From Trebouxia sp. TZW2008 (taxonomy: Eukaryota > Chlorophyta > Trebouxiophyceae > Trebouxiales > Trebouxiaceae): 64,000 nt of DNA. Below the pieces are notes generated by a model. That model worked only from the letters and a program-made list of their open reading frames with translations, made no database searches and was not told the DNA's origin. The translations under genes and the position numbers were made by a program. The stretch covers positions 31,092 to 95,091 of the forward strand of contig BDIU01000145.1 in NCBI GenBank assembly GCA_002118135.1. Direction: 5' to 3'. The stretch's first letter is position 1. Every line of letters begins with the position of its first letter. This document shows, one piece after another, positions 1 through 64,000 of this stretch.

Positions 1-3000
1 TAGCTGCCGCCGCACACAAGAAGTGGGCCTTGGGACGAAGTCATTTGGCTTAATGACGTTGGTAGTGACAAGGGCAATTGCTTTGATTGCGTCAGGAGTG
101 GCCGGGTCATGAGTATGCAGGGCACTTACCCAGGGGGCGTCAATGTGTGACTCCATGTGCAAGCACTTCCTGGCCAGGGCTGTCAGCAGCTCCACACAGT
201 TGATTGACACCACATTGGTCAGCACGTACTTATAGAATGTGAACCCAATCACATCCTCAGCACACCCTGGCACACAGTAGCCCTGCAGTGCCACAAGTTG
301 CATAATGCCAAAGTTCATAATAGCAACAATAAAAGCTGAACTTGTAGAATGTGAACCCAATCACATGCCGCACACCCTGGCACACAGTAGCCCTGCAGTG
401 CCCAGCTTGATATTGTGCTCATGCTAATGCTAGTGGTAGTGGTAGCAGGGCCTGAGGTTCTCAGCATACACTATGGCGCAGCTGTCAAGTCATATGATGC
501 CACTATTGCAGCCGGCTTGCAGCACATCTGTCAGGTTGACAGCATCTGACTACAACACATGCACCAAGCAAGTACAAGCACCTTGACGTGCAGCATGAAC
601 AAAGTTGGCTAGCATGTACAGTTCAACAGGCGCATGACTACCTTGGTTCCTTTCAAAGGTATCTAGCGGGGTCGTTTACCTCGAGGCCCAGAGTGTTGGT
701 GCTGTTTGAGCAAGTGGCATCGCAGCATTGCAATCCCCTGCTGCAGGATGCATCAGCGTACACCACGCCCAAGCTGGGATCACATGTCTGCAGCCAACGT
801 GATCCATGTCATTGATGCAACAGATGCCTGATTGGCAGCCACTTGAGAGACGCTGAGCAATAGCACCACACTCAAGATGTGCGTATATAGCAGCATGGAT
901 TGAATCAGCAGACAGCAAGACACTTTCAGCTGCACTTGAGTGGTCATATGGTACAAACTGTTGCTGACCATCAGCTATCAAGTCAAGTGCATCATCACGT
1001 GCAATCACTGATGCAGCTGCTGTGAGCAAAACAGTCAGGCCATGTGTCCACATGCAGCGGCTCATTGATGCACAGCAGAACACGTCAACACAGATGAATG
1101 GTTTGCGCCACTGTAACAAGATCCAAGGTAAAGTGTGCTCACTGTCAAGTAGTCTGCATAGTTGCTTGTGTGCAGGTACTTCTGAGCTGTGTTGGCATTG
1201 GTCTGAATCACAAACAACTGGTACACCAAGGTTGCCAGGTTGATTGTCTTCAGCACAAACAGCTTGACTGCTTCCACCTGCACAGCAACTTGACTAGAAT
1301 CATGCTTGCTATAACAACGCGTCTATTGCATCAAAAGCTGAGAAGGCAGACAGCTACGTGAGCACATGGAGTTGGAAGCTTAAACAGGAGATATGCAGCA
1401 TGTGACTAGATAGCAGCACATGATCTGCAATTTGCAAGCAAGGTCAATGATACCATGAGCTGCCTTGACAAAGCACAGTTAGCAGCAAGGGTGCTGGTCA
1501 ATGCTTGTGTCATCTGGTGCGGGCACTGACATCGTTGCTCCCTAAGGTTGGCTATTGGTTGGAGCTGTCGTCCATGCATTTCATGAGGTTGCGCGTATTG
1601 GTTCATTCATTGCAACGCAAAGCGCCAAGGCTAGATGCAGCCAGCAATAGCTTGAGTTATGCTGATGCAGCATTTTGCTGGCTACTCACATTGGTGCGGA
1701 CATTGGGATGCCACTCCTCAAGGTCAGTGCTGAAGGAGACAGCTTGACTGCTGACAATGTTGATGAAGGACAGGCAGATGGTGGACCCAAAACCAGTGTT
1801 CAGCTCCTGAATGATCTGCTGCTGGTATTTGATCACAAAGAAGGTGCCGGCAGCAGTCCAGCCCACAATGCCTGGCCACACAATGACCAGCAGCAATGCC
1901 TGCAACATGCCAGGCACAAGTCATTAGTCAAGCTGAGTGTAGACTGCGGAGTTGAACTAGTTTCTAGCATAGCCAGCTTGAATCTGCAGCAAGCAATGCC
2001 ATCAGCAGATGGAAAGTCAAAGCAGCCTTCTTGCTTACTGTCGCTGCCCTGGATTATAGCCAACAACGTTGCGTGGCTCACATATAGAAGCGTCTGCAAC
2101 ACATCAGACCAAAGACGCAAAGTCACGACAGCTTAGAGTGTTGACAAATGTCTTTCTTAGTCCGCCATGTGGCAGGCCAAAACAGCAGACATGGCACAGC
2201 AAGAAGCTGTAGGTGTGGCAGGTGAGCACGGAAGGTCTTAAGCCATCAAGCTCAAAGCACACCTTGCGGATGTAAGCCTTGATCTTGGTCCTGGTGTCCT
2301 CAATCTTGTCTTCCAGCAAGGCGTCATTCACCATCTCCTTCAGCTGGTTGCGGATAGAATGCCGCAGGTTGCGGGCCGCTCCAGCATCAGTCAGGTGGTA
2401 GTCCCAGCTGGCAAACACCACAGTGGAAAAGGGGAACAGCTTGTTGCTGCCCACAAAGCCCGAGTCTCCCTCGCCCTGCATGGGTGTGGATTCTTCAATT
2501 GCATGCATGTGGCTTCACCGGCGAGACACTTGCATGCGAATGGCTTGACCAGTGAGAAAGCCACATTAAGCTGAACAACTCTGGCAGGGCAGCCAGTCTT
2601 GCTAGCAGTTGACAGTATGTGCCCTTGCATTACATGCAAGGATGCTGATCGCAACGCAGCGTAACACTGCTGGCTAGAAACAGTGGCGCAAGACATCTCC
2701 ATGCTTCATTAGACAGTTTCATACAGTTTACACAGGTTCTAACTACATGCAGGGCTTCTGCGCTGAGTGTGTGATTGGTGCAAGTGTACGCAAGCATGCT
2801 GACGACAGCTGCATGAGTATGCTGGGTCAGATCTTGTGAGAGAGATTTGGTGACGTTGGTCGAGGTGTTTGTTGGTGCTCATGATGCAGACAGACCTCAG
2901 ACAAGAAGGCAAGTCAAATGATGTCAATGAAAGCCAATAGCGTTCATGCCTCAACATGCTCAACTCATGAATGCATATCACATGCAGAGTGTCTGCATCC

Positions 3001-6000
3001 AGCTAGACTTCTTGCAATACTGTGATCCTCACTGTGATGTCAAGATCTTGCTACGCTATCTACATATTCGTCCCGAGCATTTGCTGAAGACCTGTCGTGC
3101 ATCCTAGCATAAACTGTGTCCATAAGAAAGAAGGCAGCCACTGCGGGCAGCAACTGCAATCAGCACGTTACCTGGAGACGCTGCTGAATGACATATAGCA
3201 AGATCAAGAGGCTGAAAAGGTACATGCCTCCCATGGCAATAGGCCACAGCAAATCAGGCCGGAAGAAGCCATGCTTTGTGCCCACTGTGTAGTTGTACCC
3301 ACCTGTATACATCAAAGCCAACTCGCTGCTTGCTATCATAAGTTGAAGCAGTGGTAGTAACAGTAAGCTGTCTTGACGCGTGGTACAAGTTGTGACTGAA
3401 AGTCACTTTGTGAGCAATCTCAGCAGACTCTTGAAGTGGCAGCATGTAGCGAGAGCATGTCAACAGCATGCAGTGCAAAAGCTGTCCAATGGCAGAAAAC
3501 CTGGTTGTAAGCGAGTGTCAGACACAGCAATTCCTGGGCAGCATCAATGTTGGTCAGACATACAGCCATGTCTGCATAGCACTTGACTTTGCCAGTCAAC
3601 GGCTGCGCAAAAGCCAAAAGACTGGGCCCTGAAATGCTTGCTCACCATATACCAGGAAGGTGTCATCTAGGCCGTAGCCCTGTATCATCAGGCTTGGGCT
3701 GGTCTTCTTGAACAGCTCCCAGGAGAAGGACGTAGGTGGGCTGTTGAAGAAGGGGAACACTGCCAGAACCACCCAGATGGCCAGAGCTAGAACATTGAGC
3801 CACAAAGCAAAGCGCAGGAAGTACAGGGTCAGTGACACATTGGATCCTGCATGCAATGCATCAGAAGGTGTCAATTATGTTGCTGCAAGAGGTGAGCCCC
3901 AGCAGCAAGTGCAAGGTGAGAAGAGTATTCCCAACTGCTGCGGAATGAGTGCCAAGTCAGAGGCAGCCGTTGCAACACCAGTGAGCGTGTGGAAAGACTA
4001 CTGCAGAATAAAGTCTCAAGTCAGAGGCAGCTACTGCAACAGTGCTTAGAGTGCAGACATGAGACATGTGAGAAAAGGCCCTAAGGGGTGTCATGATGCT
4101 GCCTGAAGCAGCATGCTTTCAAGCAACCTGCAACTGCTGGGTGTAAGTATGAGCGGTTTGACATGCTTGACCTCAATATAGCAAACTTGTAAACTACTGT
4201 TATTGTGCTGCATGCAAGTGCTTCAGTCAGATGTCAGTATGACAGACATACCATGCTTGCCCTCCACCCTCTGGATGCTGGTCTTCCACAAGGTGAAGAA
4301 GCTGACAACACGACCGTAGTACTCCATGAAGGATGCAAAAGTCTCTGACCACTGGGACTTGCGCTTGAACAGCTCGCCCTCAGTCTCCTGGAAAACATGC
4401 ATTGCAGCTACAGAATGCAGAGCCACCATAAAAGCCTCTTGAGTACAGCAGAAGCCAAAATTGAAGGACATCACACGTATAGATCATATTGCTACATGTC
4501 ATGGCAAGGCTGGGAAAATGGCTTTTGCCGGGTCTGTCTTGAGACAATATCAGCAGGCGTCAATGCAATGCAGCATCGACATTCTCTAGATGCCAGCATA
4601 AGCAGCAACTCGACGCCAGTCACACATAGCCCTCATAGGCAAGCACTGCAACACAAACAAACAGCACAAAGCATCAAGGCAGCAGGACCAATGGATCTAA
4701 GCAGCCACAGTGCAAGTGGCTTAATGTGCATAGGCAAGTACAAGGCCGGACATAGGTATCTGCCAGGGCCGGCTTCTTGTTCCTGTTGCCCCAATAGTCT
4801 ATATACATATCACAAGACAGCTGGACCAGAGAAGCAATGATGGGACGCACCTCAAGGGTGCGCAGGCGAGCACAAGCCCTAGCGTAGGTGTCTGCCAAGG
4901 CCTGCTCCTTGTTTCTGTTGCCTCCAGTGCTGCTCATGAAGCTGGCCTCAGAGCGCGCCACCGATGCAAAGGAGCCTGCAGAGGACTCTGGCGCCAGGCG
5001 GGACTTGCTGGGCGCTGACATCTGCACATGCTTGCCTGCAGCCGCGTATTCAGTGTCAAAGCGTGTTGTTGTTGTCAGACTGTGCTATCTGTATGTTTGC
5101 CTACAGCAATGAAGACACTCTACAAAGTTGCTGCCATCTGTATGCATGCCTGCCAGCATGCAGACACTTTGACAATGTGCTGCTGTTCACACTATTGCCT
5201 GCCAGCATGCAGACACACAGTTGCTGCCAATAGCAACACATGATAGCATGCTGGCCTGTAGGCACCAAGCCAATCCAGCATTTCACTGTCGCCACAACAT
5301 ATATATCAAAGCTGCAGCCTGAAACGCTAGCACCCTGATGGTTGCTACGGTCTTTTGGCAGGTCATTGTCTTGCTGACACCTGATTACAGTTGAGAGTAT
5401 ATGGTGCATGTGGATATTGTGCAGGGTCCAGGAGTGCTTGCCTGACACGCTCTGGCCAGCCAGCCGGGAGTATATTGGGGGCTGAGTCATGGAGTCCTGG
5501 GAGCGTGCAAAGGAGGCTTCCCGGTAGCCCACATCATCAGAGGGGCTGAAGGTGGATCGCAGCAGCGGTTTGATGCCATTTGGATCAGAGTCAACACTCT
5601 GCAGCACCATTTAAAACCTTTAGCATAGGTACAGGAACTTATGTTTGTAAGGCCACTCAGGGTAAGAGCAATCTCGATGTAAGGACAATGTAATTGGGAA
5701 CTGATCACTGCATTCTCACTGCAGTGGTCCCTCTGAGTATGGACAACTCAATCAGCCAAGACTGTGGTATTTGTTAGGCATGCAGTACCAGGCGCATGCA
5801 ATGATTTGCAGCTTCAGAAGCATGTGTCACAGCGTGTAGTCTGTTATCAGTCAACAGTGCTTGTAAGGCATTGAGACAGCATATTGGACACAGTGGAAGA
5901 GGTAGCTGTGATGTGCGTAATGATCAGGCCACATTACCAGCATTACATGAGACATGCCGGAATGCTGCAAGAATGCTGTGACCATGCTGTTTACATGCTG

Positions 6001-10500: not shown

Positions 10501-12359
10501 TGCTGTAGTCTTTTTCTACAGCCAGATGCAAGATCTGTACCTGCTGTTGCTTTCAGACCATTGTCTGCTGTACTCAAGGCTGCAGGGCAGCATGAAACAG
10601 CTTGTTCAGCCTGCCACCTCAACACAAAGAAGTCTGTCTTTGCTGGTACAGCCCCCTTGCAGACACAGGGCATCAATGCAAAGCTTCCCTGAATCCTGGC
10701 ATCTTGTCGCTAAAAAGTTGACTCCTGCTGCTGTTACAGGCTCCTCGCAGGCACCAGGTGGCCTGGCAAATCCCTCTGCATCCTGCTATCTTTTTGCAAA
10801 CAACTCTGTTCCTGCTGTCACAGGCCGCTTGCGGGCACAAGGCGGCGAGGCAAAACCCCACAGGAAGACCAAGCTCTAGAGAAGGAGCTACTGGCAGATG
10901 AGAAGGAATGTTCAGAGCATGTCATGCTGGTGGACCTTGGCCGAAACGATGTCGGCAAAGTGGCCCAGATGGGCTCAGTCAATGTTGAAACCTTCATGGA
11001 GGTGGAGCGGTACAGCCATGTGATGCACATCTCCTCCACTGTAAAGGGCAAGCTACTACCGGAGCTGAATGCATGGGATGTGATGAGGGCTGCTTTGCCT
11101 GCTGGCACTGTCAGTGGAGCACCCAAGGTTTGCTGCAATGCCCTCAGCACCTGTTTCCTTTTTGTTTTGCTTGATGATTGCATGAGACAGGTAATGCACA
11201 TTTCCTCCACTGTGAAGGGCAAGCTGCTACTGAATTTGAACGCCTGGGATGTGATCAGGGCTGCTTTGCCTGCTGTCGCTGTCAGCAAAGCACCTAAGGT
11301 TTGCCATCATGCCAACCCTGAGCGCTTTCAGTCTCTGCTTCACAGCTGCATGCGATGCACCGTCCTCCACCGTAAAGGGCAAGCTGCTGCCGTAGCTGAA
11401 TGCATGGGTTGTGATGAGGGCTGCTTCGCCTGCTGGCACTGTCAGTGGAGCACACAAGGTGTGCTGCAAAGCCCTTACTGCCTCATTGAGCCGTATCGCA
11501 GATTTGCACGATGTAGCTGCTACAGTCAATGCCCATACTTTAGCCTTGTGTGTTGACAGCATGGTCTTGGACTGTCAAGTGCACTGCCAAATGTCCCTCA
11601 ATCAGACTGTTGCTGCTTGCTGCAGCATTGATGCGGCTTTACTTAATGGCCAAAACTGTCAAGCTTGCAGTCATATACCAGCAGTTTGATGCATGTTTTC
11701 AAGACAAGTATTCTCTAACTGCAGGTCAGGGCAATGCAGATTATAGATGAGCTAGAAGTCAACAAGCGCGGACCCTATGGCGGCGGCATGGGCTATGTCG
11801 CCTATAACGGCAACATGGATATTGCGCTGGCATTGCGTACCATGGTCATTCCAAACCCACCTGCACCCCCAGCTCCTAAGTCTGCCACCACTAATGGAGA
11901 CAGCAAAGCCAGAAAGACATGGACAGTGCATCTACAGGTAAGATTTTGCTCCCAAACTTGAAGCTTACATGTCATCATGCTGCGTCCGCTGTATGGGTTG
12001 AAGTGAACCTGCGGTTGAAAGGTGTTGTTTGTCCAGTGATGTATGGATGACTGTGAAACAGGTGCTTGTCAGGGCTTTGAGCAGGTTGCATGCAAGTGCA
12101 GAACATTGATGCATATGCATGGCAGCACGCTTCGCCACAGCCAGCTGGGACTTTTCAGAAGCTTCAAGCCTGATCATGATGTACTGCATTGTTGTTGGTG
12201 TCCTAGGTCTTGAGTTCGATACATCTTTGCCTATTGCAGGCTGGAGCTGGGCTTGTGGCTGATTCTGTTCCTGAGGCTGAGTATGAGGAGACTGTCTCCA
12301 AGGCTGCAGCTTTGGGCCGAGCAATCGATTTGGCAGAGCAAGCATTTGTTGGTCTGTGA
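7512..12359 (+). CDS. ASA1: Anthranilate synthase alpha subunit, plastid-type
   Basis: Converts chorismate to anthranilate, the first committed step of tryptophan synthesis, using ammonia from a separate glutamine amidotransferase subunit. Nine exons join in phase: 7512-7731, 7811-8022, 8288-8528, 8812-9050, 9444-9622, 10157-10279, 10824-11127, 11725-11937, 12240-12359, giving 616 residues. The first ~70 residues are rich in Arg, Ser and Ala with few acids, as in a chloroplast transit peptide. Family motifs follow in order: [24 protein letters not shown] then [83 protein letters not shown] (chorismate site) and [15 protein letters not shown]. The tryptophan-sensing LLES motif reads LFEA here. 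Introns around exon 7 hold decayed copies of that exon. The start was chosen as the first in-frame ATG; an earlier GTG was rejected. Confidence 0.93.
10636..10865 (+). repeat. Three copies of the ASA exon 7 acceptor region, two decayed
   Basis: The functional acceptor and exon start near 10822 (CACAGGCCGCTTGCGGGCAC) are preceded by two diverged look-alikes: ACAGGCTCCTCGCAGGCACC near 10736 and ACAGCCCCCTTGCAGACACA near 10647. Each is followed by a similar GGC-rich stretch and AAAxCCC. The spacing of roughly 85-90 bases fits tandem duplication. Confidence 0.6.
11018..11475 (+). repeat. Triplicated 3' half of ASA exon 7 with donor site
   Basis: Three tandem units with a period of about 160-170 bases each begin near the codons for [12 protein letters not shown] and end at a splice-donor-like GT after APK or AHK. 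Unit 1 (to 11127) is the real exon end, [11 protein letters not shown]. Unit 2 (~11191-11296) is open but reads [11 protein letters not shown], losing catalytic-loop glycines. Unit 3 (~11358-11457) has an in-frame stop after KGKLLP and ends SGAHK. The units are decoy exons inside intron 7. Confidence 0.85.
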
Positions 12360-12730: not shown

Positions 12731-15700
12731 ATGTTTATCTGCATGTCCAGCTCCATCTTCAGAAGGGGCGGACAGAAAGCAGAGGCGCATGGCGCACCAA
12801 GCGAGCAGCAGATCAGCAGCGAGGAGCTGGATGCGAAGCTTGCTGCGTTGCAGAAGGGCTGGTCGGCACCGCTCACATCGTACTTCATCAAGCGCCAGCA
12901 AATACTACATCAGACCTTCGGACCGAACGATCTAATCTTGTGCTGCATGCAGCTCGACCCAATCTTGGGCTATGTGGCAGGCCGACGACGCCTCAGTGGA
13001 GGTCAAGCTTGAGAGGGGCAGCAAGCTGCAGCGCATGGGTATGAGCTGCTTCTCAGTCTTGCCGCTGCGGAATTTCAGCACCAAATGACGTCCCTTTCAA
13101 AAGGGCATGGTGTTGCAAACACGGTATGCATGCAACCAGGCACTGAAGCCTTGCACACTTACTTTACAGGATACAGGCGATGCAAAAAGCTTTGGCTGCA
13201 TATAGAGGAAGCTGTGTAAGACGCACTCTGGCTGTCTCTGCTGAGAGGACTGCTTGCATAGCACTCTTGTGTGTAATAGGCGGTGTCTGCAGGTATTTGA
13301 TTAGCAGAGGCAACCTTGTGCTGTCAGCACTTGGTGCAGCAGGCCAGCACCAATTGCTGTCCTTACATGAGGCAACAGCAATCATGGTGTGCCTCCTAGT
13401 CCTGTACAGTACATTGCTGCGCTGCAGTCAATAATGTTATGCGTTTGTGCACAGGTCTTCCCCATGATGGCTGTCTGCAGGTGTCTGCTGGAGTCAGTGT
13501 TGCACAGTATCAGGTGTATTGCCATCTGATGCAGGCAGGCTACATTGTCACAAGGTGCAAAAGCCATCTCTTTGCATGATGTATTGGCAAAGACATGTAC
13601 TCTGTGGCTTGCTGTACGATAATTCAGCAAGGACACGTGCTTTGTCACTGGCTGCATCATCATCATATACTTGCTTGGCAAAGTCATGTGCTGTTCCGCT
13701 TGCTGCGTTATCACAGTGTACCGACTCGGCCAAGACATGTGCATTGTCATTTGCTGCGGCACTACTGTTTGATAGTTCGGCAAAGATGTGTGCTTGATCA
13801 CTTGCTGCATCATTACAACAGCTTGCCAAAGACAAGCGCTTTTTCATTTGTTGCAGCACTCTGGTTTGAAAGTTTAGCAAAGACATGTGCCCTGTCACTT
13901 GCTGTGGCGTTGTTGTGTGATGACTCAGCAAAGACATATTCTTCACTTGCTGCATCTTGGAACCATCAAATCAAAGCCCTTGTGCTGCCCAGACATCCAG
14001 CTGTATGGGTACTTGATGATGCACAAGACCCCCAGCAGGTGTGGGCTAGAGCTAGCACCAGCAGCAGCATTAGTTGGCAGCAACAGGCTCCAGAGCAACC
14101 TCAGCACCTTGTTATGGTGCCCACTGATGCTGTTGAAGCGCAGCCTCAGGTAGCTAGCAGAAGTTGCACCACATTTGTGCATGCATTGCTGGCCCCCAGT
14201 GACAAAACAAAACGAGCATGTTGCATGCACACTGGCCGGTGTTCAGGCCCCTGTATGCAGGGTAGCTTATGCCGTCTTGTTGGTCTGTATGTTGTTAATG
14301 CTCGGTCCCCTTGAGTGAAGCAAATAGCATCTTGTTACGGATTACTGTTATCTTGTCACTGCTCGACTGTCTCACGTCACAGACGCTGCAGGGTCATTGC
14401 CAGAACATAGCTGAGGAAAGCATCCCTGAGCCCCCAGTCAAGAGGTTGAAGCTGTCAACAGCTACCACACAGATGACAGAGGCTGTTACTGAGGCGAGAG
14501 AGGCAGCAGCTATGGCGACAGTCAAAGCTGCTGATGTTACAAAGTCCCATAATGCTGTTACAGAGGCAGCAGCTATGGCAATGGTCACAGCTGCTGATGT
14601 TACAGAGTCTATTAATGATGATACAGAGGCAGCTGCTAAAGTGTTAGAGGCACCTGATCAATGGACAAAGGCCCTCACGAAAGTGACAGAGACAGCTAGT
14701 AAGGTGACAGTGGCAGCTGTTGTGGAGACAGAAGGCGCTGGTGAAGTGACAGATGTCAGAACAAGCAGAGCTTGGTGGCCATCGGCTTGGGAAATCAGCA
14801 TTTTGAACGATGCACTGTTAACGGACACACCAAGCAGTCTGCCAAGGTGATATTGAGTCTTCTGCCACGAGCACAAATGTTTGTGCACTTCTGTACATCT
14901 GTAGCATGCTGTAGAGCAGCACATGTACGACTGCCAAGCTGCTCACTGTTGCCTGCAAAACAAGGTTCAGGCAGTATTTCCTATGCTGAAAGTTTGCTGT
15001 GCTTGGGAACTCCTTACTCAAGAGTCACACTTCGTGATCAATCCCTGTCTTTGTCATTCCCGAATAGATTGACATTTGCTGGCCTGCTGCGCACGAAAGC
15101 TGCTTTTGTGATGTTCGATGCTTGAATAGTCGCTGAATGTCGGTGCCTTGACAGATTTGAGATCCACAATCCCAAAGAGGCAAGAGAACAGGGCACATAC
15201 TCAGCGTTGCAGCCCTTTCCTACCATACTACAGACTGCTAGTCAGACTCCAATCCCAGACACCTTGCAGCTGGTAAGGAGCGACAACAAGCTGCCGGCCT
15301 GTATGTCACATCAGTGCGTCAGCTCCTGGTTACTAAATTCAATGCCTGGCACACCTGACCAACGTCCTCTGTTGCTGACACATCTTCAAGGGCACATTTG
15401 GTTTTGTTGTTCAACAGCAGGACTTGGCACTCGCCTGCAGTGCATTACACCACATGCCCAGCATGGACCGCATACAATTTTGCTGAAGAAAGTGTTTAGC
15501 ATGCTGTGTTGTTCTCTGCAAGTATGCTATGTTTGAGGTTACTGCTGCATGGCTGCAGGTCTATGACGTCTTGAAGCCCAACAAGAATTTCAGCAAAGCC
15601 AAAGCTGACGCTCCTAGGATCACAGTCTGCCTGGCATCTGGTAGCATGTTGCCATATTGCAGCCAAATACAGCAGCTGCAACAGATCGCAGCTCCTTTGT

Positions 15701-49100: not shown

Positions 49101-50197
49101 ATCAGTAGTTGATGAGCAATTCAATGACAGCAATCATTGTCACACCTGCTGGCATGAGTGCTAGGTATGCGTGGCCCAATGGTACGTCAAGTTTTATGTC
49201 TACAGGTACGTGCGCCCTAGGCTGGCTTTGATCGGTGACACTGCACAAACCGTGCATCCATTGGCTGGTCAAGGGGTCAATCTAGGTATAGGGCATGTCA
49301 ATGCTTAGGTGGATGCAACTGTGTATGCAGAGCATACTAAGGCTTGCATGTGCATGCTGGGTGGGTGTAGTCCAGTGAACAAGCGTTGTGTCTGTAGGTA
49401 TGTGCGCCCAAGACTGGCTTTGATCGGTGATGCTGCACACACTGTGCATCCATTGGCCGGTCAAGGCGTCAATCTGGGCTTTGGGGACGTCAAGGCTCTG
49501 GTGGACGCCATTGTTTATGCCACAGAGGTTGGCATTGATATCGGCAGCATTTCTTACCTTGAGGTCAGTGCTGCTAACACCTCTCAGCTGTTGCCATGCT
49601 ACTCCTTGCGTTATTTGGGGTTGACTGTGTTGTCTGCTGCATGTGCTTTTCAATGCTTAGTCAATTTGCAGTTCATGTCAGGCCCGACATTGATTTATTG
49701 ATCTTGAGCCTATTGTGGATATTGGGAGCATTGCATATCTTGAGGTCATTAGGTCTGCTGACACCTGCTCAGGTGCTCAATCATGTGCAAGCGGTTTTTA
49801 TGCCAATTGGATGTGCCGTCCAATTGCAAAATGGACCAACACTCCACATGCACATATGCTCATGCAGCAATGCAACTTGCTTGCACAATGCACCCTGGTT
49901 GATGCTCACTTGCGGAGCATATGATTCTCACGTATGCTCCACAAACCTGGTCTGACGCTGAGGTGCGCAGCTCACAGACCATGCATACAAGAGTTATGAA
50001 TTCTTGTAAAGCAGGAGCAGTATGAAAGGTCGCGTCAGCGGGCCAATCTCAGTATGACAGCAGCCTTGGACGGGCTTAAGAGAGTGTTCGAGCCTCAGAC
50101 AGGCCTCTCAGCTAGAGTGCGCAGCCTTGGCTTGGGTATGCTCAATGAACTTCCATTCGCGAAGGACAAAATCATGCAGTATGCCATGGGCAGATGA
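46114..50197 (+). CDS. COQ6: COQ6 ubiquinone biosynthesis flavin monooxygenase
   Basis: FAD-dependent hydroxylase of the mitochondrial coenzyme Q pathway. Eight exons join in phase: 46114-46255, 46330-46379, 46475-46765, 46897-46948, 47555-47892, 48651-48802, 49398-49563, 50012-50197; 458 residues, normal for the family. The start ([20 protein letters not shown], then [10 protein letters not shown]) looks like a mitochondrial presequence. Motifs: FAD Rossmann [39 protein letters not shown] motif [18 protein letters not shown] motif [20 protein letters not shown], then [20 protein letters not shown] and an end in [20 protein letters not shown]. Three introns contain decayed copies of adjoining exon sequence. 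The last acceptor (TTGTAAAG) is unusual. It converges with LSM8. Confidence 0.92.
47222..47660 (+). repeat. Three tandem copies of the start of COQ6 exon 5
   Basis: Units near 47227, 47394 and 47555 each start like (GTG)AATCACAGTCCAGCA and read ES-SS-YA-LQ. Copy 1 keeps [13 protein letters not shown] but meets a stop soon after. Copy 2 has lost the DG motif (VVESLKDNS, then stop). Copy 3 is the working exon with [13 protein letters not shown]. Each is preceded by a CAG/TAG-type acceptor or remnant. The period is about 165 bases. Confidence 0.85.
47866..48300 (+). repeat. Five degenerate copies of the COQ6 exon 5 donor region
   Basis: The real exon end (CAATTTGTCAGTGCAGTCAA, then TACG|GTTAGTCACTCA) is followed by look-alikes near 47938, 48018, 48091 and 48255, each with CAGTCTGTAAGCGCAGT-like sequence and a TAGTCACTCA-like tail. 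Spacing is 70-160 bases. The copies sit in the following intron. Confidence 0.75.
49203..49345 (+). repeat. Pseudo-exon copy of COQ6 GD-motif exon
   Basis: Copy of exon 7 located ~190 bases upstream of it, including a TACAG acceptor. It reads [20 protein letters not shown], then [13 protein letters not shown], then stops. Ala to Thr and His to Gln changes fall inside the FAD-binding GD motif. A further fragment near 49713-49750 ([11 protein letters not shown]) repeats the end of the same exon downstream. Confidence 0.88.

Positions 50198-50302: not shown

Positions 50303-50307
<5 letters not shown>

Positions 50308-50352
<45 letters not shown>
50308..50352 (+). repeat. (CTG)15 microsatellite
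   Basis: Fifteen uninterrupted CTG triplets on the plus strand, about 110 bases past the COQ6 stop and 250 bases past the LSM8 stop on the other strand. It is probably in one or both 3' untranslated regions. Confidence 0.95.
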
Positions 50353-50355
<3 letters not shown>

Positions 50356-51549: not shown

Positions 51550-52839
51550 GATGCGCAGCTCAGCTTGAGTGAGGCAGCACTGCTTTAATAGCCGAGCAGG
51601 CCACGCAGACTTAGTCCATCGTCATGCACGCCGCGTGCCACAAGCAGAGTTGATCTGTACTGCGTGTATGGGGCAGGACCGGTGCGGTTGACGCAGGCAA
51701 CGGAGGTCGTCCGCCAGTGCTGATTTGAGAGCAGCGTCGCGAGGTCACAAGCGTCAGTCTCGAGGTTTGTACAGTCGAGCACCTAGCTTAGGCGCTTTCC
51801 TCTGCCCTATTCAGGCGAATACGAAACGGCAGAACAGGTCAAGGGTTTCATTTGCAGAGCATTGCAGGCTGATTGCTTCTTCAGGCGGCAGAGAGGCAGT
51901 GACGCTGTGTCGATAGCAAAGCTTACGTACGGTGAGCGCGTTCTCTACATCGCTTTCCGCGTGTGTGTCATGTCATGTAGCTTCATGTCAATCCTAGGAT
52001 GCTTTTTCAAAATCTTTGAGACCGGATCTTCCGATATGTCGACATCAGCGAGACTGAGGGTTGTCATGATGCCTTTGTGTATACGTGCTAGCCTCAGTAC
52101 ATCCTCCGTGCGGAATGTCTATCTTAGCTGGCTTGTCCGCCCCTTACCATTGTAAACCTGAGGAGATTGAAAGCAGGAACCTGTCTGCCTGTCTTGTGCA
52201 CGTAGGTGTGCAGAAGCTCTCGGATGTGCAACATCTCGACTTGTATTCGGTCGGCATAAGATTCCGCCCTCTCGATCTTGAGACCTGCGTTTGACTGCAG
52301 GCAGGCATCCCGCTTCGGCGGCGCTGTGCGGTCAGAGGCTGAAGGCACACCAGGTACGCCCCTTGCCGCTCCTACATATGCTATGACATCAGCGGGGATG
52401 ACGATCAAACGATTTTCCAACACTTGACCTGACAAATGATGCTGACAAACATCACTGCGTTCTTCCTGACCCGCTATGCTCTTCAGCCTGTCAACATTCA
52501 GCTGTCGAATGATGAGCTTTCGAAATCAATCTTAGGACACCTTCAGAAGCAGTCGCCCTAATCAAGTGGCTGCTTGTGAGAGCAAATGTTTCCCTGACGA
52601 TAGCTATTGTTGATTGCGCAAGATCCTGTTCTGATGATGCTAAAACAAATACTTTCGTTCTACCAAGCAGCTGCAATATGCTGTGTGGAAACAAATTTGG
52701 AGACCTGAACTGAAGAACAGTCTTGCTGCATTCTGCACGTACTTGTTGCTGTGCACTCAGCGCTGCGCATCATGTCTGCAAAGTGTGTAATGTTTCTGTG
52801 TGTGCTGCAGGTTTGCTGGTTGTGTTTAGCATCAACAGT
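51550..52839. other. Unresolved region between LSM8 and enoyl-CoA isomerase
   Basis: 1.3 kb. On the minus strand a stretch at about 52330-52150 after a CTGCAG acceptor reads IERAESYADRIQVEMLHIRE, then LLHTYVHKTGR, and reaches a GTAAGG donor-like site. It looks exon-like, but I could not build a gene around it. Otherwise this should hold the LSM8 and isomerase upstream regions. Confidence 0.35.
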
Positions 52840-53637
52840 ATGTCCAACTCCTGGGTGCAGGTCAACAAGCGGCCCGGGGGTTATGCCATTGTTTCATTGT
52901 GCAAGGAGCCTGCCAACACCTTGGACTTCAAGCTGTGGCAACAGCTTGCAGATGCAGTCAGCCAGCTAGAACAAGACTCCTCTGTCAGAGGCATCATCAT
53001 TGCTTCTGGCCTCAGAAGGGACATCTTCTCTGCTGGCAATGACATCGTGGGTCTGTATGCTCCAAAGACCACCAAAGAGGCATACGGGAAGTTCTGGATC
53101 ACACAGAATCAGTTTCTGGCTCGATTGTATCGGTCACCTTTGGTAACGATTGCAGCCATTCGTGGAGCATGCCCAGCAGGGGGTTGTGCCATAGCCATGT
53201 GTTGTGATGCTCGCTTCATGACAGAGCAGGGTCACATAGGCTTGAATGAAGTTGCGCTTGGCATACCTGTGCCCGCCATGTGGGCTCATCTGATGGTGAA
53301 TACCATTGGTCAAGGCAAATCTGAGCAGCTGCTGCAGTTTGCCAGGCTCTTGTCTCCTCAAGAAGCTCTGCAAATGGGTCTTCTCGACCAAGTAGTCTCA
53401 AAAGACCAGCTCATTACTACAGCAGAAGCTGCCATGCAGAGGATGCTGAAAGCTGGACCAGATTCTGGCCGGCAAGCAACTAAGAATCATCTAAGGAAGC
53501 AGTTTTCTCAGGAATGGGAATCGTTCTGTGTTCCTGAGGTAGAGGGTGCTTGGGAACAGCTTTGTCAGGAAAAGACTGTAGCTGCTATTGGTGGTGTCTT
53601 GGAGAATCTGGCCAGGAAAAAGAAGTCTAAGCTGTAG
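52840..53637 (+). CDS. Enoyl-CoA delta-isomerase-like crotonase, peroxisomal
   Basis: Crotonase-fold enzyme that shifts cis/trans-3-enoyl-CoA to trans-2-enoyl-CoA so that unsaturated fatty acids can enter beta-oxidation. One uninterrupted frame, 265 residues from ATG 52840 (MSNSWVQVNKRPGGYAIVSL). Motifs: FSAGNDIVGLY (oxyanion loop), IRGACPAGGCAIAMCCDARF, and GLNEVALGIPVPAMW with the expected catalytic Glu in LNE. The protein ends KKKSKL; the final SKL is the canonical PTS1 peroxisome signal, so a mitochondrial isoform is unlikely. The open frame extends upstream of the ATG to a TTG, and an upstream spliced leader cannot be excluded (CTGCAG precedes 52811). It is the only clearly intronless conserved gene in the window. 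Confidence 0.9.
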   Translation: MSNSWVQVNKRPGGYAIVSLCKEPANTLDFKLWQQLADAVSQLEQDSSVRGIIIASGLRRDIFSAGNDIVGLYAPKTTKEAYGKFWITQNQFLARLYRSPLVTIAAIRGACPAGGCAIAMCCDARFMTEQGHIGLNEVALGIPVPAMWAHLMVNTIGQGKSEQLLQFARLLSPQEALQMGLLDQVVSKDQLITTAEAAMQRMLKAGPDSGRQATKNHLRKQFSQEWESFCVPEVEGAWEQLCQEKTVAAIGGVLENLARKKKSKL

Positions 53638-54336: not shown

Positions 54337-57300
54337 CTACTTGGCAAAAATCACCGCACTTCCAAGGCATACCATTATGATTGATATCCCAGCAGCGATA
54401 GCCTGCAATCCGTAGTCCAGTGGCAGAACTTGGGTAGTCGCCCAAGCGAACTGCAGGAAGCACAAACTTGTAGACTCACGTAAAAGACTTACCGAGCTAA
54501 GCATTGAATCATCAAATGCAGAACTCGGCAACGCGTTGAAGACTCAGGCAATGGACTTACCATCACAGCGTGCATGCACATGCCAGGAACGGCTGAGCAA
54601 GACTGTGCAAGGCTTGTTGTGCCTCATGGAACCGACAGGTAAGCAAGACTGTGAAATACTTGCGACTCACCCACACAGTAGCCAAGCAAAACTGTGCAAG
54701 ACTTGTTGTGACTTAATCAAACAACAGTCGGGCAAGGGTACAACTGTGCCAGTCTTGTGAAGACTCAACCAACAGGAGTGCAGACAGCATTCAGCTAACA
54801 GAGGAGTTGCTGCCAGCATCATTGCCTCAGAGCACGAGCAGAATTCACTTACCGGGAGAGAAATAGCTATCGAAATGATTGCACTGATGATTGCGCCAAA
54901 TACCGCATTTTTGAGAAAGAAAGGCCCTTCTGGGTTGCGTTTTTGTCTCTTGTCGTTGATGCGATATACGGCATAGCAAAAGGCAAAACCAAACGGCAGG
55001 ATGGGGTCAGCATTTGTTGTTATGGACTGTCCAATAGCCCTGCATCACAGGTAGCACTGAGTATTGAAACCGTTGCCTAACCAGAAATACATTCATTCAT
55101 TCATCAGGAACGTGGGCCAGGCACGCTCAGCAGGCTCAACCAGGTACGTACAGAAGCAGAAAGCTATGTGATGACTATATTCTGAGCAAAAAAGCGAAGC
55201 TTTGGCATCAGCTTAGGCGTAACTTTTGTCACAGATGCTGTCTTGCTCAAGTGACCATTTGAGTCGCTAAGCCATGAGCTGCTATCCCCTGTGGGTGCCG
55301 TCAAGGGTCTGCCCTTTTTCACAAGCACCTGTTACTCCTAACAGCATGGACTTGTGTTCCATACACCTCTTACCAAAGCTGTGAGTTGACATTAATCCAA
55401 GCTACAGCGCTTATGCGAAGCTGTGCTAGTCTATGCAGGAGCAAGAGTGATATCTGCTTAACTGGGTGCATGTGAAACGCGAACCTGCAATTGCTGCTTA
55501 GTAGTCATGAGTAGCCTGATGCCAAATTGATGCTGTGCAATGACCTTGCAGGTGCTGACTTGCCTGAAAGCACAGCACAGCACAGCACAGCACAGCAAAG
55601 CAGCAAACAACCAAGCAAAGCGAGGACAAGACAAGCTGTCAAAGGAGCAGCCCGTCAAAATGCATGACAAAACAGCCCAAAGCTGCCGAATCACTTAGAG
55701 CATTTGCTGAGGCATACATTTGGTTGCGAGTCACGTCACAGGACAGTAATGCACAAGTCAAAAATGAGCTGCACAAAGTAGTCCAGATTTGCAGGTGGAC
55801 TGAAGATCTGACAGCAGGCAAGTCATGAACTGGCATGGAAACCCGACAGCAGGCCAGCCATGAAATGCATACAGTTGTGAATCAGCTTTCAAAAGGTGGA
55901 CAAAAGACGTAAATGGACTCACCAGAGGTCAAATATCAAAAAGACAACACCCTCATTGATTAGCGTTTGTCTTGAGACGTGGGGCTCCCAGAGAGCAAGG
56001 AACTTCTCCCACAAACTCTTTTTCTGCACCACAGGTCACATCAAATTAATCTGCTGCAGCATGACGCCAATTTCCAAATCTTTCTCTTTCTAGGGGGACT
56101 TGTTTGGGAATCGAACGCTGCATCCTGAGTGCAGCAATGCCTCTGGGTAAGCACAAATCAATACAAGAACAGCTTTCTTGGAAACCAAAAGCAAGCCTTA
56201 CAAACAGGAACCACAGTACTGGCAGTCGCACAGTCACCATACGCCATCAAGCCCGCCCACTCAAGCCATGGCATATGCAGAGATAGAATGAGGCCATGCT
56301 GCGGCAGCCTATGCATTGTGTGCCGCTCATTGCTGCATTTTGTGAGTACATCTGCATGTGTCACAGTTCAAGCGTGATCACAGCTTGTACGCAGATCACA
56401 TGAAAGACTGATGAGAGCATGCTCATCCTGTGAAGATGCAGACTGAGCTGCTGGCTGTGGCTGTGCAGGCTAGTTTTGCTTGTCAGATGGTTGAACTCAG
56501 CATCAATGTGTACACAGAATGTCCTCCTGCTGATGGGCATGTACAAATGTCAAGTTCACTCCAGCAAGCTTTTTTGCACATACCAGCGTCAAGTATGCTT
56601 CAGGACATATAGATGCTGCATGCACAAGTGTCACCTGCAGTCAATGGCATGGGATGACCCAATGTCACATGCAATGCAACACGCCTAGCATCTCTGCAAG
56701 AGAGTGTGGTCTATCATTATTGCGCAGATGTTGTGAATGCTCCCTACAGGCTTGCTGCACGTCTGAGCTGTTGCAAGACCTTGTTCTGTGCATGCGCAAG
56801 CATCAGATGGATTCAGTGGCATGGCATAACCCAAAGTCAAGTGCAAAGCGACACACCTAGCATCTGTACTGGGATGTGTGACTCATAATGTGGCATATAA
56901 AGATGCGAGTGCTCACCACAGGGTGACCCTGCATGTCTCAAACATCTGCCAGACCTCATTTGTTTGCATGCACAAGCATCAAATGGAATTGATGGGATGT
57001 CATGTCTCATTACATGCTTTGCGACGTACCAAGCACCTGTGCTGGGATATGTGATGCACAGTGATCATTCAAAGATATTAGTGCTCACCGCAGGGTCACC
57101 CTGGACACTAAATATGTCTGTCAGACCTTGATTTTTGCATGCACAAGCATCAGATCCATGCAATGGCATAGCATGGGATGTGTGACGTGGTATGGACTCA
57201 TAGAAAGATGTGATTGCTCACCACAGGGTCACCCTGGGCATCTGTGCGTCTGCCAGACTTGGGAGGCTGAAACCCATATCTATGCCGGGATTTCATTTTC

Positions 57301-58219: not shown

Positions 58220-58840
58220 GTTCCCACCGAGAGCCCGCAATTTGAATGAGATCAATCACGGCCGGCAAACATAAGCACACGCACTGGTTGTCTGAGGTAT
58301 ATGACTGTGTCGACAGCGCTGGCGAATGAAAGTCTGGTACTTGACAGTGACTGCTGCAATGCCTACAGCTAGATGACGATTTAGTATATGCAGAGATTTA
58401 CTAATTGCCGTCCTAACTGGGATGGTCCACATAAATGCTGCTGAGACATTTTGCCGCAGTGACCACGCTGCTCACATGCATTCCTTACGCACATGCACAT
58501 AATGTTGGCGTGCTGCTGCAAGATCAACTTAGACCAGCCATCGCACCTCATGGGCATGACTGCCTAGTCCAAGCGCATGAATGCCCAACATAAAACTGCA
58601 GACAGTGGAATTAGCCACAATCGCCATAGCAACAGCACATCCATGCTGAAGGAGTTGATCGTGGCTTGTAGCATTTTGACAGGGCATTTCAGGATTATGT
58701 CAGCTGGGTGCTGAGGTTCAGCCTGCCAGGAGATATGCAGCTGTTTGTGTGTGTATGCATTTGCTCCAAAAAGCTGCTGTACACAGACTGTGTCATTGCT
58801 ACATCAGCAGCAGGTCTGTGCACAAGACTCTTGTCATGCC
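58220..58840. other. Intergenic upstream of CPP1-like gene
   Basis: Holds the CPP1-like promoter. A ~60-base unit (TTGACAGGGCATTTCAGGAT ... GAGGTTCAGCCTG) near 58677 recurs diverged at ~58850, inside the next feature, about 173 bases on. No gene is supported in this interval. Confidence 0.45.
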
Positions 58841-58901
58841 TTGCAGCATCTTGACAGGGCATCCCAAAACAGTGTCAGTTGGGAGCAGAGGCTCAGCCTG
58901 T

Positions 58902-59456
58902 CATGAGACCTATATGTACAGCACAGAGGAGTGGGCCACATTGTGGCGCTTGGTGAAAGACCCTGCAGTGCATGAGTTGTTCTGGCAGTGAATCAGGGGG
59001 CGTGATGTCAGCAACGTTCAACCTGGCAAAGCCCGCAACAACCACACCAAGGCTGCAGCTATTGCTGATCAGGCACCAGACGCTATCCAGTACGCAAAGC
59101 AACTTTGCCTTGTTGCACCCAACGACATGCAGCCAAAGGACAGAGTGCCTTTGCTTGGCAGCAACAGCGCTCAGCTTCCCATGGCTGTGCAGCAGCATCC
59201 AGAGTGGTTCACAATCGTTAACATTGCACAGAGTGCACGGTCCTGGTGTGGGCGCAAATGTCTGGCCTGGAGCCATTTCATCATGATCATGCAGCTTGAG
59301 CCATCCCTGCAGCGCTCTACCTATAACAATACTGTACTGAGATCGCTCATTACTTTGTGTAACATCACTGCGGTGCTTTTGTCCATTGTTCCTCATTTGA
59401 TAGCCATCAGCTATGAAGCTTTTGCAATCAGCTTGCATCAGCTGCTGAAGGCATAG
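58902..59456 (+). CDS. Unidentified exon-like stretch
   Basis: Two protein-like pieces on the plus strand. About 58902-58990 reads TYMYSTEEWATLWRLVKDPA, then VHELFW, before a GTGAAT donor-like site. About 59011-59456 stays open through NVQPGKARNNHTKAAAIADQ, continues AAxAPDAIQYAKQLCLVAPN-like sequence and MQPKDRVPLLGSNSAQLPMA, then a hydrophobic end and stop. No family is recognised. It may be two exons of a small gene with unseen 5' exons, or a decayed element. Confidence 0.3.
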
Positions 59457-59784: not shown

Positions 59785-60108
59785 TTATAAAACACTGACT
59801 AGTAACCAAACTACAGCATGCAGGCTCGAGGCTTTGAGGCTTGGGCATGCATCACCCACCTGAGTCTCCAAACACAAGCCAGCATGCTTCTGGTATGCAA
59901 AGCCGCCTTTGCCTGTCTGGTTGCCATCCAGGAAGTTGCCAGAGTAGAACTGCACACCAGGGGTTGTGGTTGAGATGGTCATGGTGCGACCAGAGGAAGG
60001 GTCCCGCACCTTGATTGCCTCCCTTGGTCTGCATCAAACAATCAATCAATCAATCAATCAACCAATCAATCAATCACCTTGTTTGCCTCCCTTGGTCTGC
60101 ATCCATCC

Positions 60109-60160
<52 letters not shown>

Positions 60161-60181
60161 ACCAAATCAATCAATCAATGT

Positions 60182-60217
<36 letters not shown>

Positions 60218-62887
60218 CCTTGATTGCCTCCATTGGTCTGCATCAATCCATCAATCAATCAATCAATAGAATTTACAGTCCAAGGTAGGGAGCCAGATGT
60301 GACTTATTGGACTTCCTGGCTTGAAAGCACAGGTGAATGTGTCTGGCAACCAAAGGCAGCTGATCAGTGTTTGCCTCAAGAAGCAACATCGAGACTCCAT
60401 CACAGATCGTGAACAATAAGCAAATTGTCGTGTGCTTCAGCACAATGCAGCTTTGATATCAGCTCATACTTTGCCTTCATGCCGGCAAGTGAGACGCCGC
60501 ATCCTATGAGCGACCATAGGTAGGGTTTTGGCGGAGCAAGCACCCTACCAAAGATGCAAGAGAGTCTTGCAATGAATGTTGTGTTGTGCAGGCTTTTGAT
60601 AACAGACATCCTGATGTCACTGCTAATGTCCTGATGCACTGTTTGAGAGAGAAAGACCTGCATGAGGCCAAATGGTTTGTACCGCTGGATGTTGTTTGGC
60701 CTAACTTACACTTCTGAGGCTACACTGCCAGCCTTGGTGGAGAATTTGGCCTGCCTGCCCAAGCCATGCAGCACCCAGTTGTGATCATAGCCGGCAGGAG
60801 TGTCATCAATGTCCTGCCCAATGCGCTTGAGTTCTGTGAAGTCAAAGGCTGTGCCCTTGACGGGTGTGATCTGCCCTGTTGGAATGCCATCCTCTGATGT
60901 AGGAATGTAGTGATCCCTGCAAAATTTCATACAGCTCGAGCTGATGTCTTTTCCAGCAAGATTCCATCACTACAACGTTGAACATGATATGCCCTTATTG
61001 TTATACCTTGAACAAGCCGTCTTGGCAAGACATTGCTTGTGCCAGACACACATAGCCTATGTGATGGGAAGTGTAGAGCTCATTGCTGTCAATACGCGTA
61101 GAGCAGCTTGATGCGACACTGCCAGCTAATCGAGAATACTTGCATGCGAGCTGTGACCTGATGGGCACACTTGCTGCAACAGGCTTATTGAAAAACAGAT
61201 GCAGTTGTTACAGCATTTAATCATTGCAGCAGCTGCCAACAGCTATTTGTTCATGCTGGCTGCTTAGAACTGTGTCATTAGGCAAACTCTTGCAGAGTTC
61301 TGCTTACCCTCTGAGATGAAGCTCATGATCTAGAACATCTCCACTGTCATGGCCTGCCAGGTTGAAGTATGTGTGCTGAGCAAGATTCACAAGCGTGACT
61401 TTGTCTGTTGTGGCCTCAATCAGCATCTTGAAAACCCCTTGCCGGGTCATGATGTATGTCACTGACACCTTCAGCTTTCCAGGGTAGCCCTGTATGGACG
61501 ACATCAGTCATTTTGTGGTGTATCAATTTCATTGCATTGCACCGGCACCTCCAACTTTTGGTGGTAGCTGTAATGAAAGCATTGAATGTTTATTGTATGT
61601 CACTGACACCTTCAGCTTTCCAGGGTAGCCCTGTATTGACAGCATTGATTTTCTTATTGTGTTTCACTCCCACCTTGAGCTTCTCAGAGGACAACTGCAT
61701 GTTGAAAGCAGGAACTTGGTGTTACATTCCACTGACATCTTCATCCTTTAGAGGGTGCTTTTGTAGCGACAATATGGACCTGTGTGTTGCATACTAAAAG
61801 GAGAGCTATATGATATGCTGAACTGCATCCCAAGCACTAAATGCTGCCTGTTGCTTGTGTCTGTGTATGTGGATGAGTTTGAGAGTGCAAGCTGCAAGCT
61901 GTCTTGCTGTGCCGGTGCATTATCATTGACTTGGTGAGCTGGATGCTGCAGGTGCATGGCAAGCACCCAGCAAGGTTGTACAGCCGGCACGGCATGCTAG
62001 GGGTGATCGCTCCCTGATGCATCTAGCTACTGCAGTGTCATTGGCAACTTTGCTTATTGTGTCTCACAAGTAGCACGGAAACAGATGACACAGAATCAGT
62101 TGAGCTGACAGATGCAGCCAAGGAAGTCAAGTGGGCATGTGAAACACACACCTCTTCACCGTCTGGACTGGTTCTTGTCAAGCGCACTGCATCGCCATCT
62201 GGGTGCTCAATGCTCTCAGCAGACCAGATCTGCTTGTCAAAGCCCTTGGTGCCACCATGCAAGGCATTTGGGCCATTGTTGGCAGTCAACTTGTAGATCT
62301 CGCCGTCCAGAGTGAAGCTTGCACCCTCAATCCTGTTAGCACAGCGCCCCACCACAACACCAAAATAAGGGCTGGAGCTTGCCTGCGCCCAGCATTTGAC
62401 AACGTCGAGGCCAACACTCAAGTAGCGGACACTCATCAGCTGTGGGCTGCAAATGTCAAGACGAAAAAGCAGGATCTCTACAGCATGCAGCGTCACAGAT
62501 CTCTTGCCGTGTATGACTTCATGTCGTCGAAACCCAACACCACGTCTGCGACTGTGCCGTCCGCATCTGGTACAAGTAGTCCTGCAATGACAGGCAGCAG
62601 TGTTCAGAATACATTCTCGCTGTGTGCGGCTTATACGACCAAGATTGCAGAGGCGTACTTTGAATACAGCAGCCCAGTGGCCGAACGTGAGCTTCGGTGC
62701 CATTGTCCGACCTCAACACAATCGTTTCGATCTCTTGCAACTGACGCGACTTTAGGAATTTGCCAAGCGCAAAGGCAGCGGCCGCAGCAACGATCAAACC
62801 CCCTGTCACAACCAGCTTGTTGCTTTTGCCGTTCGAGTCGTCTGTAGTGTGCTTTGCATGAGCATGGTTGCGCTTTAAGCTACCCAT
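59785..62887 (-). CDS. GALM: Aldose 1-epimerase (mutarotase) with N-terminal membrane anchor
   Basis: Interconverts alpha and beta anomers of hexoses such as galactose and glucose. Exons joined in phase: 62887-62659, 62581-62508, 62382-62152, 61489-61308, 60916-60712, 60009-59860 or on to a stop at 59785. A basic N-terminus is followed by a membrane segment ([20 protein letters not shown]), unlike the soluble bacterial form. Motifs: [55 protein letters not shown] (catalytic His), [20 protein letters not shown] (second His), [10 protein letters not shown], and [16 protein letters not shown] (catalytic Glu). The usual ~30 residues after LETQ are absent: either an unseen last exon exists or the frame runs on to the stop at 59785 with an unrelated tail. 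Intron 2 appears to use a GC donor (ACG|GCAAGA). Confidence 0.9.
60009..60285. repeat. (AATC)n arrays with three copies of an exon-junction sequence
   Basis: Three copies of ACCTTGATTGCCTCCCTTGG, then TCTGCATC (plus-strand text; near 60008, 60075, 60214), each followed by a run of CAATCAATCAAT. The first copy contains the splice acceptor of the last epimerase exon, so the junction was copied along with the microsatellite. Confidence 0.88.
61455..61770 (-). repeat. Four copies of the start of the epimerase [12 protein letters not shown] exon
   Basis: The real exon start (acceptor at 61490) is matched almost perfectly by a copy near 61596-61642, including TCACTGACACCTTCAGCTTT and CCAGGGTAGCCCTGTAT, and by two more diverged copies near 61665-61700 and 61728-61765. 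Copies are 70-145 bases apart in the upstream intron. Confidence 0.82.
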
Positions 62888-63050: not shown

Positions 63051-64000
63051 ATGCAGCATGGCCTGCATTCAAGGAGGCTAAAGGGTCTCAGGACTCAGTG
63101 GCGAGCAGAGAAGCTGTTTGTCAAGGAGGGAGAGCGCTTTATTGAGCACAAAGTGTTCAACCTCTAGAAAGAGGGGGTCCTCTCTTATGTTTTGTTGAAC
63201 ATAAAGGGAGGTGTCCATGCTAAGGCTGATGTCTTGGCACCGTTATTTTGTCGTGATTTTGTCTGTTTGACTGAGACATGGCTGACTGAGCATGATGCTC
63301 AGCTGCCTGTTGCAGGCTGCATGTGTTATGCTGTTCATAGACCTATATGTGACAGACCAGGGCGCCCCTCAGGAGTAATATCTGTGTATGTGTCAGACCG
63401 CTTGCACAGACATGTTGAGTTTGTCAAGAGTGCTGAGGATGGAAGCTATCTATGGCTGAAACTCAAGTCTGTGCAGGGATGTCCTGAGATGTTCTTCTGT
63501 GTGTGTTACATGCCAAGCAAGAAGCTGTATCGAAACTCTGAAGATCAAAACCCATATGCATGCTTACAGGACGATATTCTGCAGTTCCAGGGCAGCGGCG
63601 CGGAGGTGTTGCTATGTGGAGACATGAATGCCAGGACTGCAGAAAGAGATGATTTTGTGAAGCTATCGGACCTCCCACAGTGCCTCAATATGCCAGATGA
63701 AGCAGAAGATGTGCCCACATACATCCCACCAAGGCGCAATCGTGACAAAGGCTGGGTTCCCAGTGAAAACTGGGGACCAGAACTCCTGGATCTCTGCAAA
63801 GAGACTAGTTTGCTCATTCTGAATGGGCGGACTCCAGGAGATGAGGCTGGGAAGTGAACTTTTGGCATTGCATCATCAGCAGGGTCAAGTACTTTGTTGC
63901 AGCTGCCTAGTGCATGTCAGCTGCAGTGTCTTTGGAGTGACGATGCAGAGGTGTATTGCACAGATCATCACTCAGTGGTACTGCACATGCTATGTGAAGC
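63051..64000 (+). mobile_element. Decayed non-LTR retrotransposon (LINE), endonuclease part, runs off right edge
   Basis: One reading frame shows an endonuclease/exonuclease/phosphatase domain typical of LINE ORF2: LLNIKGGVHAKADVLAPLFC, FVCLTETWLTEHD, LCGDMNARTAERDDF, WGPELLDLCKETSLLILNGR, and, after an interruption, TFGIASSAGSST and VYCTDHHSVVLHM (the Asp-His active-site end). The frame is broken by TAG at ~63166 and TGA at 63855, and is open in the same frame on both sides of each stop, so this is an inactive copy with recent point mutations. Reverse transcriptase would lie beyond the window. The 5' boundary is approximate; an in-frame ATG lies at 63051. Confidence 0.85.

Follow-up and report, generated by a model that had tools for sequence, protein, structure and literature searches.

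The 64-kb stretch of DNA analysed here, which we refer to as the window and which comes from the lichen-type green alga Trebouxia sp. TZW2008, carries several genes whose introns contain additional copies of a neighbouring exon end. A first-pass annotation had reported such exon-edge copies in the introns of TMC, ASA, COQ6, CPP1-like and aldose epimerase genes, and in each of the five we find an intact end accompanied by adjacent intronic copies. The identities of ASA and COQ6 were confirmed exon by exon against Trebouxia-type proteins: the ASA protein is 80-81% identical to its best three matches, Trebouxia sp. C0009 (80%) among them, and COQ6 is 65% identical to the protein of Trebouxia C0010 and 68% to that of C0006, matches that mark the alga as Trebouxia-like. 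The CPP1-like and aldose epimerase genes are recognised by Pfam matches (PF11833 and PF01263, respectively) and the TMC gene by matches to solved chains of TMC2 (E 2.8e-7) and TMC1 (1.4e-6) that are weak though significant; single-frame Pfam scans returned no match for the TMC stretch (0/3) or the CPP1 stretch (0/3). Elsewhere in the window, positions 19187-32386 hold a group of two or three LRR receptor-kinase-like genes, neighbours at intervals of about 9 kb, which share stretches 67-81% identical and represent an ordinary tandem gene family (far pairs in the self-comparison; LRR and kinase Pfam matches). An apparently single-exon enoyl-CoA hydratase gene (PF00378) lies at 52811-53637 and was fused to COQ6 by our gene finder, and the window ends in an open frame with an endonuclease/exonuclease/phosphatase domain (PF03372; 63168-63857), perhaps belonging to a LINE-type element. 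Microsatellites of the (TGC)n / (ATCA)n kind are located at 50306-50354, 60033-60076 and 60101-60217.

On the minus strand, the TMC-like gene contains a direct pair at 228-292 and 340-402 (92% identity, spacing 112 bp) that includes a predicted acceptor edge at 283; this edge is less certain, because it belongs to a short exon at the window end that is predicted by the gene finder only. A second pair there joins 4858-4922, within the exon at 4851-5007, to an intronic copy at 4726-4790 (78%, spacing 132 bp), and since it begins 7 nt inside the exon it does not span the predicted edge itself. In ASA, on the plus strand, a pair at 10641-10774 and 10729-10858 (69%, spacing 88 bp) crosses the acceptor in front of an exon that begins at 10824, and the functional exon end at 11012-11144, with its donor near 11127, is followed in the intron by two copies, at about 11185-11304 and 11342-11475 (75-89%, identified by self-comparison and homology), the third copy of this series containing a stop. 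COQ6, also on the plus strand, is affected at three edges. Its functional acceptor-edge copy at 47546-47660 (exon start at about 47554 by homology) is preceded by intronic copies at 47219-47333 and about 47385-47471 (72-78%), a donor-edge array with a predicted donor at 47893 occupies 47867-48154 (70-74%, spacings 72 and 148 bp), and the functional start of the exon at 49396-49563 is matched by an intronic copy with a stop at 49188-49328 (81%, spacing 192 bp; the pair spans 49188-49520). The CPP1-like gene, on the minus strand, carries an array of about four copies at its donor edge 57222 (56617-57240; 70-84%, spacings 133-347 bp). In aldose epimerase, likewise on the minus strand, a 94% pair at acceptor edge 60029 (60007-60267) contains an (ATCA)n microsatellite, which inflates the pair 60007/60216, whereas the exon edge at 61453-61499 (acceptor 61489/61490) has an intronic copy at 61594-61640 that is 98% identical over 47 bp and 100% across 37 coding bases, with older copies around it (61453-61682). 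The remaining features comprise an old plus-strand array at a predicted acceptor (13857) of a gene without identification (13612-13956; 67-68%, spacings 102 and 153 bp), an in-frame 63-bp repeat within a predicted exon, which is not an edge copy (14499-14638, plus strand), and pairs within predicted introns at 21864-22066 (plus; 76%, spacing 129 bp), 30109-30324 (plus; 77%, spacing 88 bp) and 58659-58908 (minus; 77%, spacing 175 bp).

Taken together, self-comparison of the window (self-blastn, E<=1e-3) yields 24 direct pairs whose members lie within 2 kb of each other, 10 pairs at greater distance, and not one near pair in inverted orientation. Chance as their source is ruled out, for 20 dinucleotide shuffles of the window gave no near pair at all. 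The pairs form 15 clusters, and in 10 of these a predicted exon edge lies inside a copy, as against 4.8 expected by shifting the annotation (at least 10 in 2/300 shifts). The arrangement proposed by the first-pass annotation, tandem copies with periods of about 70-175 bases, applies in part: measured spacings in the window range from 61 to 347 bp, and in the wider sample described below most young pairs have a spacer. Copies per edge, the functional one included, number three in ASA, two to three at each of the three COQ6 edges, about four per edge in the CPP1-like gene (by reading of the self-comparison) and, in aldose epimerase, two clear copies plus about three old ones (by eye).

For a wider view of the genome, whose assembly comprises 68.5 Mb in 527 contigs, we sampled a further 264.2 kb: 17 ten-kb stretches from different contigs, a 50-kb run (C80), a 20-kb run (C100) and 11 short DEAD-box loci, bringing the total including the window to 328.2 kb. 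Gene models were obtained with a self-trained hidden Markov gene finder, trained on the sample itself, which arrived at a donor consensus like CAG|GTRAGC, an acceptor consensus TGCAG|G, and median exon and intron lengths of 152 and 422. Of 22 Pfam DEAD matches, 20 (in 10/11 loci) fall on predicted exons, these loci being part of the training sequence, and the predicted spliced proteins resemble, by eye, ABC transporters, coiled-coil proteins and others; single-frame Pfam scans of two loci (L022/L023) matched 1/9 translations. At the exceptional DEAD-box locus (L034, G000:C352:37101-39300) there are DEAD-box matches and no predicted gene, which may reflect different codon usage or foreign or degraded sequence. 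The models are imperfect in other respects as well: a COQ6 edge was placed at 47642 instead of about 47554, part of an ASA exon was missed, neighbouring genes are fused, and some copies are labelled as exons, which lowers the edge count. Because pairs are not independent, we rely on counts per edge and per cluster; a low-complexity filter dropped 16/238 pairs in one count.

Near pairs occur in all 17 ten-kb loci, where copies cover 3.9-37.4% of bases, and this supports the genome-wide local duplication process that the first-pass annotation had suggested. The window, with 6.2% of its bases in copies, lies at the low end of the sampled loci. Overall there are 149 clusters in 328 kb, or 4.5 per 10 kb, although 8/11 of the short DEAD-box loci (2.0-2.4 kb) show no near pair. 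The only outside DNA compared was prokaryotic, a 50-kb piece of E. coli in which 2 near direct pairs occur. The pairs are overwhelmingly direct and local. Across all loci we count 312 near direct and 3 near inverted pairs, 8 direct pairs separated by 1-3 kb, and 10 with larger separations, long distances being under-sampled since most loci are 10 kb or shorter; a stricter filter, which took the 312 to 308, left 308 direct versus 2 inverted pairs within 1 kb, the same-orientation, close second copy that characterises small local direct duplications. Nor is the process confined to introns, because coverage is alike in coding (13.1%), intronic (15.8%, introns up to 2.5 kb) and intergenic (12.0%) DNA. 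Median length is greater for introns that hold a duplicate (600 versus 352; 117/350 introns up to 2.5 kb), a difference that longer introns would also produce by chance.

The geometry of the pairs agrees with plain tandem duplication in part. Of the 62 young pairs (at least 85% identity), just 13 are head-to-tail; in the other 49 more than 5 bp separate the copies, and plain tandem duplication leaves these uncovered. Older pairs at 60-75% mostly span the full period. The shared ends of 16 two-copy tandem-like pairs reveal no clear pattern. The smallest spacing per cluster has a median of 141.5 bp (148 clusters). It peaks at 120-160 bp (61/148 clusters), close to nucleosome size. An assembly artefact, which the first-pass annotation had named as a possible undoing of its own proposal, is rejected, as divergence is graded from about 2 to 35%, mismatches follow codon structure, and the orthologous proteins compared are without the copies.

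Are exon edges themselves preferentially represented? A non-coding copy is found for 80 of 708 predicted edges, compared with 45.7 ± 5.7 under circular shifts of the annotation (80 or more in 0/500), and edges are contained in 85 of 148 clusters as against 61.9 ± 5.1 after shifting, a count reached in 0/1000 shifts, while purely non-coding clusters number 34 where shifting gives 64.0. The excess of exon-edge copies is thus borne out, and its absence, named by the first-pass annotation as an outcome that would refute the proposal, is not what the sample shows. Part of it is ascertainment, because a pair of an exon and its intronic copy diverges at about half the rate of a pair with both members in introns: exon and copy differ at frequencies of 0.141, 0.123 and 0.246 for codon positions 1, 2 and 3, intron parts at 0.199 (148 pairs), roughly the decay of one neutral lineage in the former case and of two in the latter (ratio near 1:2). 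When random duplication followed by decay is simulated, however, the share of edge pairs goes from 0.30 to 0.30-0.38, for which the odds ratio does not exceed about 1.4, whereas the observed edge share of clusters is 0.71 against 0.49 after shifting (odds ratio about 2.5). This comparison, with a simple simulation and imperfect gene models, supports a modest edge excess beyond ascertainment.

A new feature, which simple duplication and decay does not reproduce, is a sharp stop of the copies just inside the intron. Exon-containing copies end 3-10 nt into the intron even at 88-98% identity, with 22 ends at +3..+5 (3.6 expected) and 27 at +6..+10 (7.1 expected); for pairs at least 88% identical the corresponding figures are 5 versus 0.4 and 5 versus 0.8. 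Copies on the intron side show a deficit and no peak at +3..+10. Expressed per edge, an intron-side stop within 10 nt is seen at 28/80 (4.8 of 45.7 expected), comprising 12 donors and 16 acceptors, and an exon-side stop within 10 nt at 4/80 (5.3 of 45.7 expected). Outside the window and the C80 run the proportion of sharp stops is 15/47, and in the window alone only 2/9. The sequences past the sharp ends are mostly unrelated: homology exceeds the random 95th percentile in 5/15 cases (at least 85% identity) and 0/7 (at least 90%) on the intron side, and in 3/14 and 2/7, respectively, on the exon side. In aldose epimerase, the 47-bp copy described above sits, by eye, among old copies that are about 60-65% similar. 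A fresh tandem duplication would carry its neighbours along, and we therefore infer that such copies were overwritten from the exon or pasted in. Overwriting would amount to conversion or template switching between repeats. Of the whole pattern, the sharp stop is what is least explained, and this boundary of young copies at the splice site merits following up. If junctions were to set the ends of the copied DNA, boundary-coupled duplication or conversion might re-seed introns, such that a sizeable part of intron growth would be exon-derived and decoy splice sites would be continuously replenished, an idea that we put forward tentatively and regard as doubtful.

It is conceivable that random micro-duplication and ascertainment explain everything, with conserved exons and splice consensus set against faster intron decay and with neither re-copying nor a preference for edges. 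The stops at +3..+10 fall approximately where the selected splice consensus ends, the decay ratio is near 1:2, simulated decay raises the edge share as given above, and a simulation with very high indel and rearrangement rates produces 26-36% sharp ends, albeit at identities of 81-84%. At a median identity of 88-95%, simulated neutral decay leaves 0-10% sharp ends, as against 9/17 observed at 88% or more. Differential decay alone thus falls short at high identity and comes nearer only at lower identity under extreme turnover, and in view of the larger observed odds ratio we hold this reading to be unlikely. Alternatively, exon-intron junctions may set the ends directly, if duplication or conversion were tied to the boundaries of transcription or splicing. 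The peaks at +3..+5 and +6..+10, to which donors and acceptors contribute alike, the missing peak of intron-side copies and the general lack of homology beyond the ends would all be consistent with such coupling. Selection ends at the same position, however, so that decay and re-copying would give a similar peak; the like involvement of donors and acceptors matches no specific splicing intermediate, and spliced RNA is not the template because the copies keep 3-10 intron bases. Junction-set ends of this kind therefore appear quite improbable.

What are the intronic copies? Donor copies lie downstream of their edge in 56 cases versus 3, and acceptor copies upstream in 71 versus 3, so the copy in use is the one that adjoins the rest of the exon. 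GT or AG is kept in 83/100 copies, at a median site score 1-3 bits below that of the functional site, which makes the copies potential decoy splice sites. Yet they are half-exons: only 5/101 have, at their other end, a splice site that scores above the random 90th percentile, where about 10 are expected; a few pairs that the gene finder annotated as two complete exons are not part of the 101. Copies gather stops and indels, with 53/62 indels in exon parts not being multiples of 3, and decay roughly like neutral DNA. The inserted copy at the ASA junction is absent from 4/4 fetched orthologous ASA proteins. The image of an exon-birth laboratory evoked by the first-pass annotation finds no support in these figures, and complete new exons are rejected for want of the second splice site. 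Where an edge has two to four copies (29 edges), the nearest is the most similar in 16/29; an ordering of age by distance was rejected, as similarity shows no trend with distance. Splice-site choice could be tested well in an ABC transporter gene (L023:9110-9990, G000:C80), where the start of one exon is present five to six times and every copy is preceded by a TGCAG-like acceptor.

Many copies might instead be present or recent functional alternative exon ends under selection. Seven sharp copies with an exon identity of at least 0.90 have 18/26 mismatches at codon position 3, more than neutrality predicts, and contain no stop, and the copy in COQ6 at 47227-47328 has an open frame, with two Trebouxia-state residues that the functional copy has lost (manual reading). 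At the COQ6 copy at 49204, by contrast, the functional copy has the Trebouxia state at 8/10 amino-acid differences (manual count). The retained GT or AG would also suit such a function, but the rarity of opposite sites, the stops and frameshifting indels of the other copies and the four ASA orthologues without a trace make it very unlikely that many copies are of this kind. An origin of the introns in the tandem duplication of an exon segment with AGGT, of which the copies would be the remains, is scarcely credible. CAG|G is indeed common to donor CAG|GT and acceptor TGCAG|G, and the duplication of a single site could thus yield both, but where an edge maps onto an edge of the partner copy, the two are of the same type, both donors or both acceptors; the few rows that join a donor to an acceptor are artefacts, a 1-nt predicted exon and a 6-nt offset.

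We favour, with a probability of about 0.6, frequent local direct duplication combined with re-copying among the repeats, selection keeping only the exon-contiguous copy intact. We envision a general mutational process that copies short stretches in direct orientation, usually 60-350 bp away, and that would affect exons, introns and intergenic DNA. When an exon edge is copied, splicing would stay with the exon-contiguous copy, upstream at a donor and downstream at an acceptor. The other copy would become an intronic half-exon with one splice site, whereby the intron gains sequence and the protein remains the same. This half-exon would then decay approximately neutrally, and the functional edge would be held by selection, so that edge copies stay recognisable longer than intron-intron copies. 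Nearby repeats may further be re-copied from one another, which might refresh some half-exons over the length of the stretch under selection, namely the exon and the splice consensus. Staggered breaks or replication slippage could have given rise to the duplications, and a few cases suggest that one repeat was re-copied from another. On this view the intronic copies look like leftovers of DNA replication and repair, not like exons at work.

The origin of intron sequence, and the way in which introns lengthen without damage to the protein, can seldom be traced, since decay soon removes the source. In this alga the source is visible at the 80 of 708 predicted edges with a recognisable intronic copy, and in graded ages, which provide a clock for intron turnover. 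The half-exons with their fair splice sites are a stock for testing how the spliceosome chooses the right edge, and the alga allows local micro-duplication to be studied directly. A literature search over titles and the beginnings of abstracts returned no description of the pattern in algae, and a term search of genome papers on Trebouxia and Asterochloris did not return the word 'tandem'.

How does this pattern relate to known systems? In exon duplication and in mutually exclusive exons, exon sequence is repeated beside its source, and the copies described here likewise adjoin their source exon; they differ in being partial, with one splice site and roughly neutral decay. Work on rice and Arabidopsis reportedly describes small tandem duplications that arise by fill-in of staggered breaks. 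Such duplications are established elsewhere (Schimmel-type; PMC8355091) and resemble ours in being direct, local and tens to about a hundred bases long, whereas most young pairs here are spaced, with a spacing peak at 120-160 bp. In the potato RdRp gene, a tandem duplication over an intron-exon boundary made a new intron (Ma et al. 2016; PMC4974935). There, as here, the duplicated stretch spans an exon edge and the splice site is copied with it; in contrast to potato, where a new intron resulted, the extra copy in this alga comes to lie within an existing intron.
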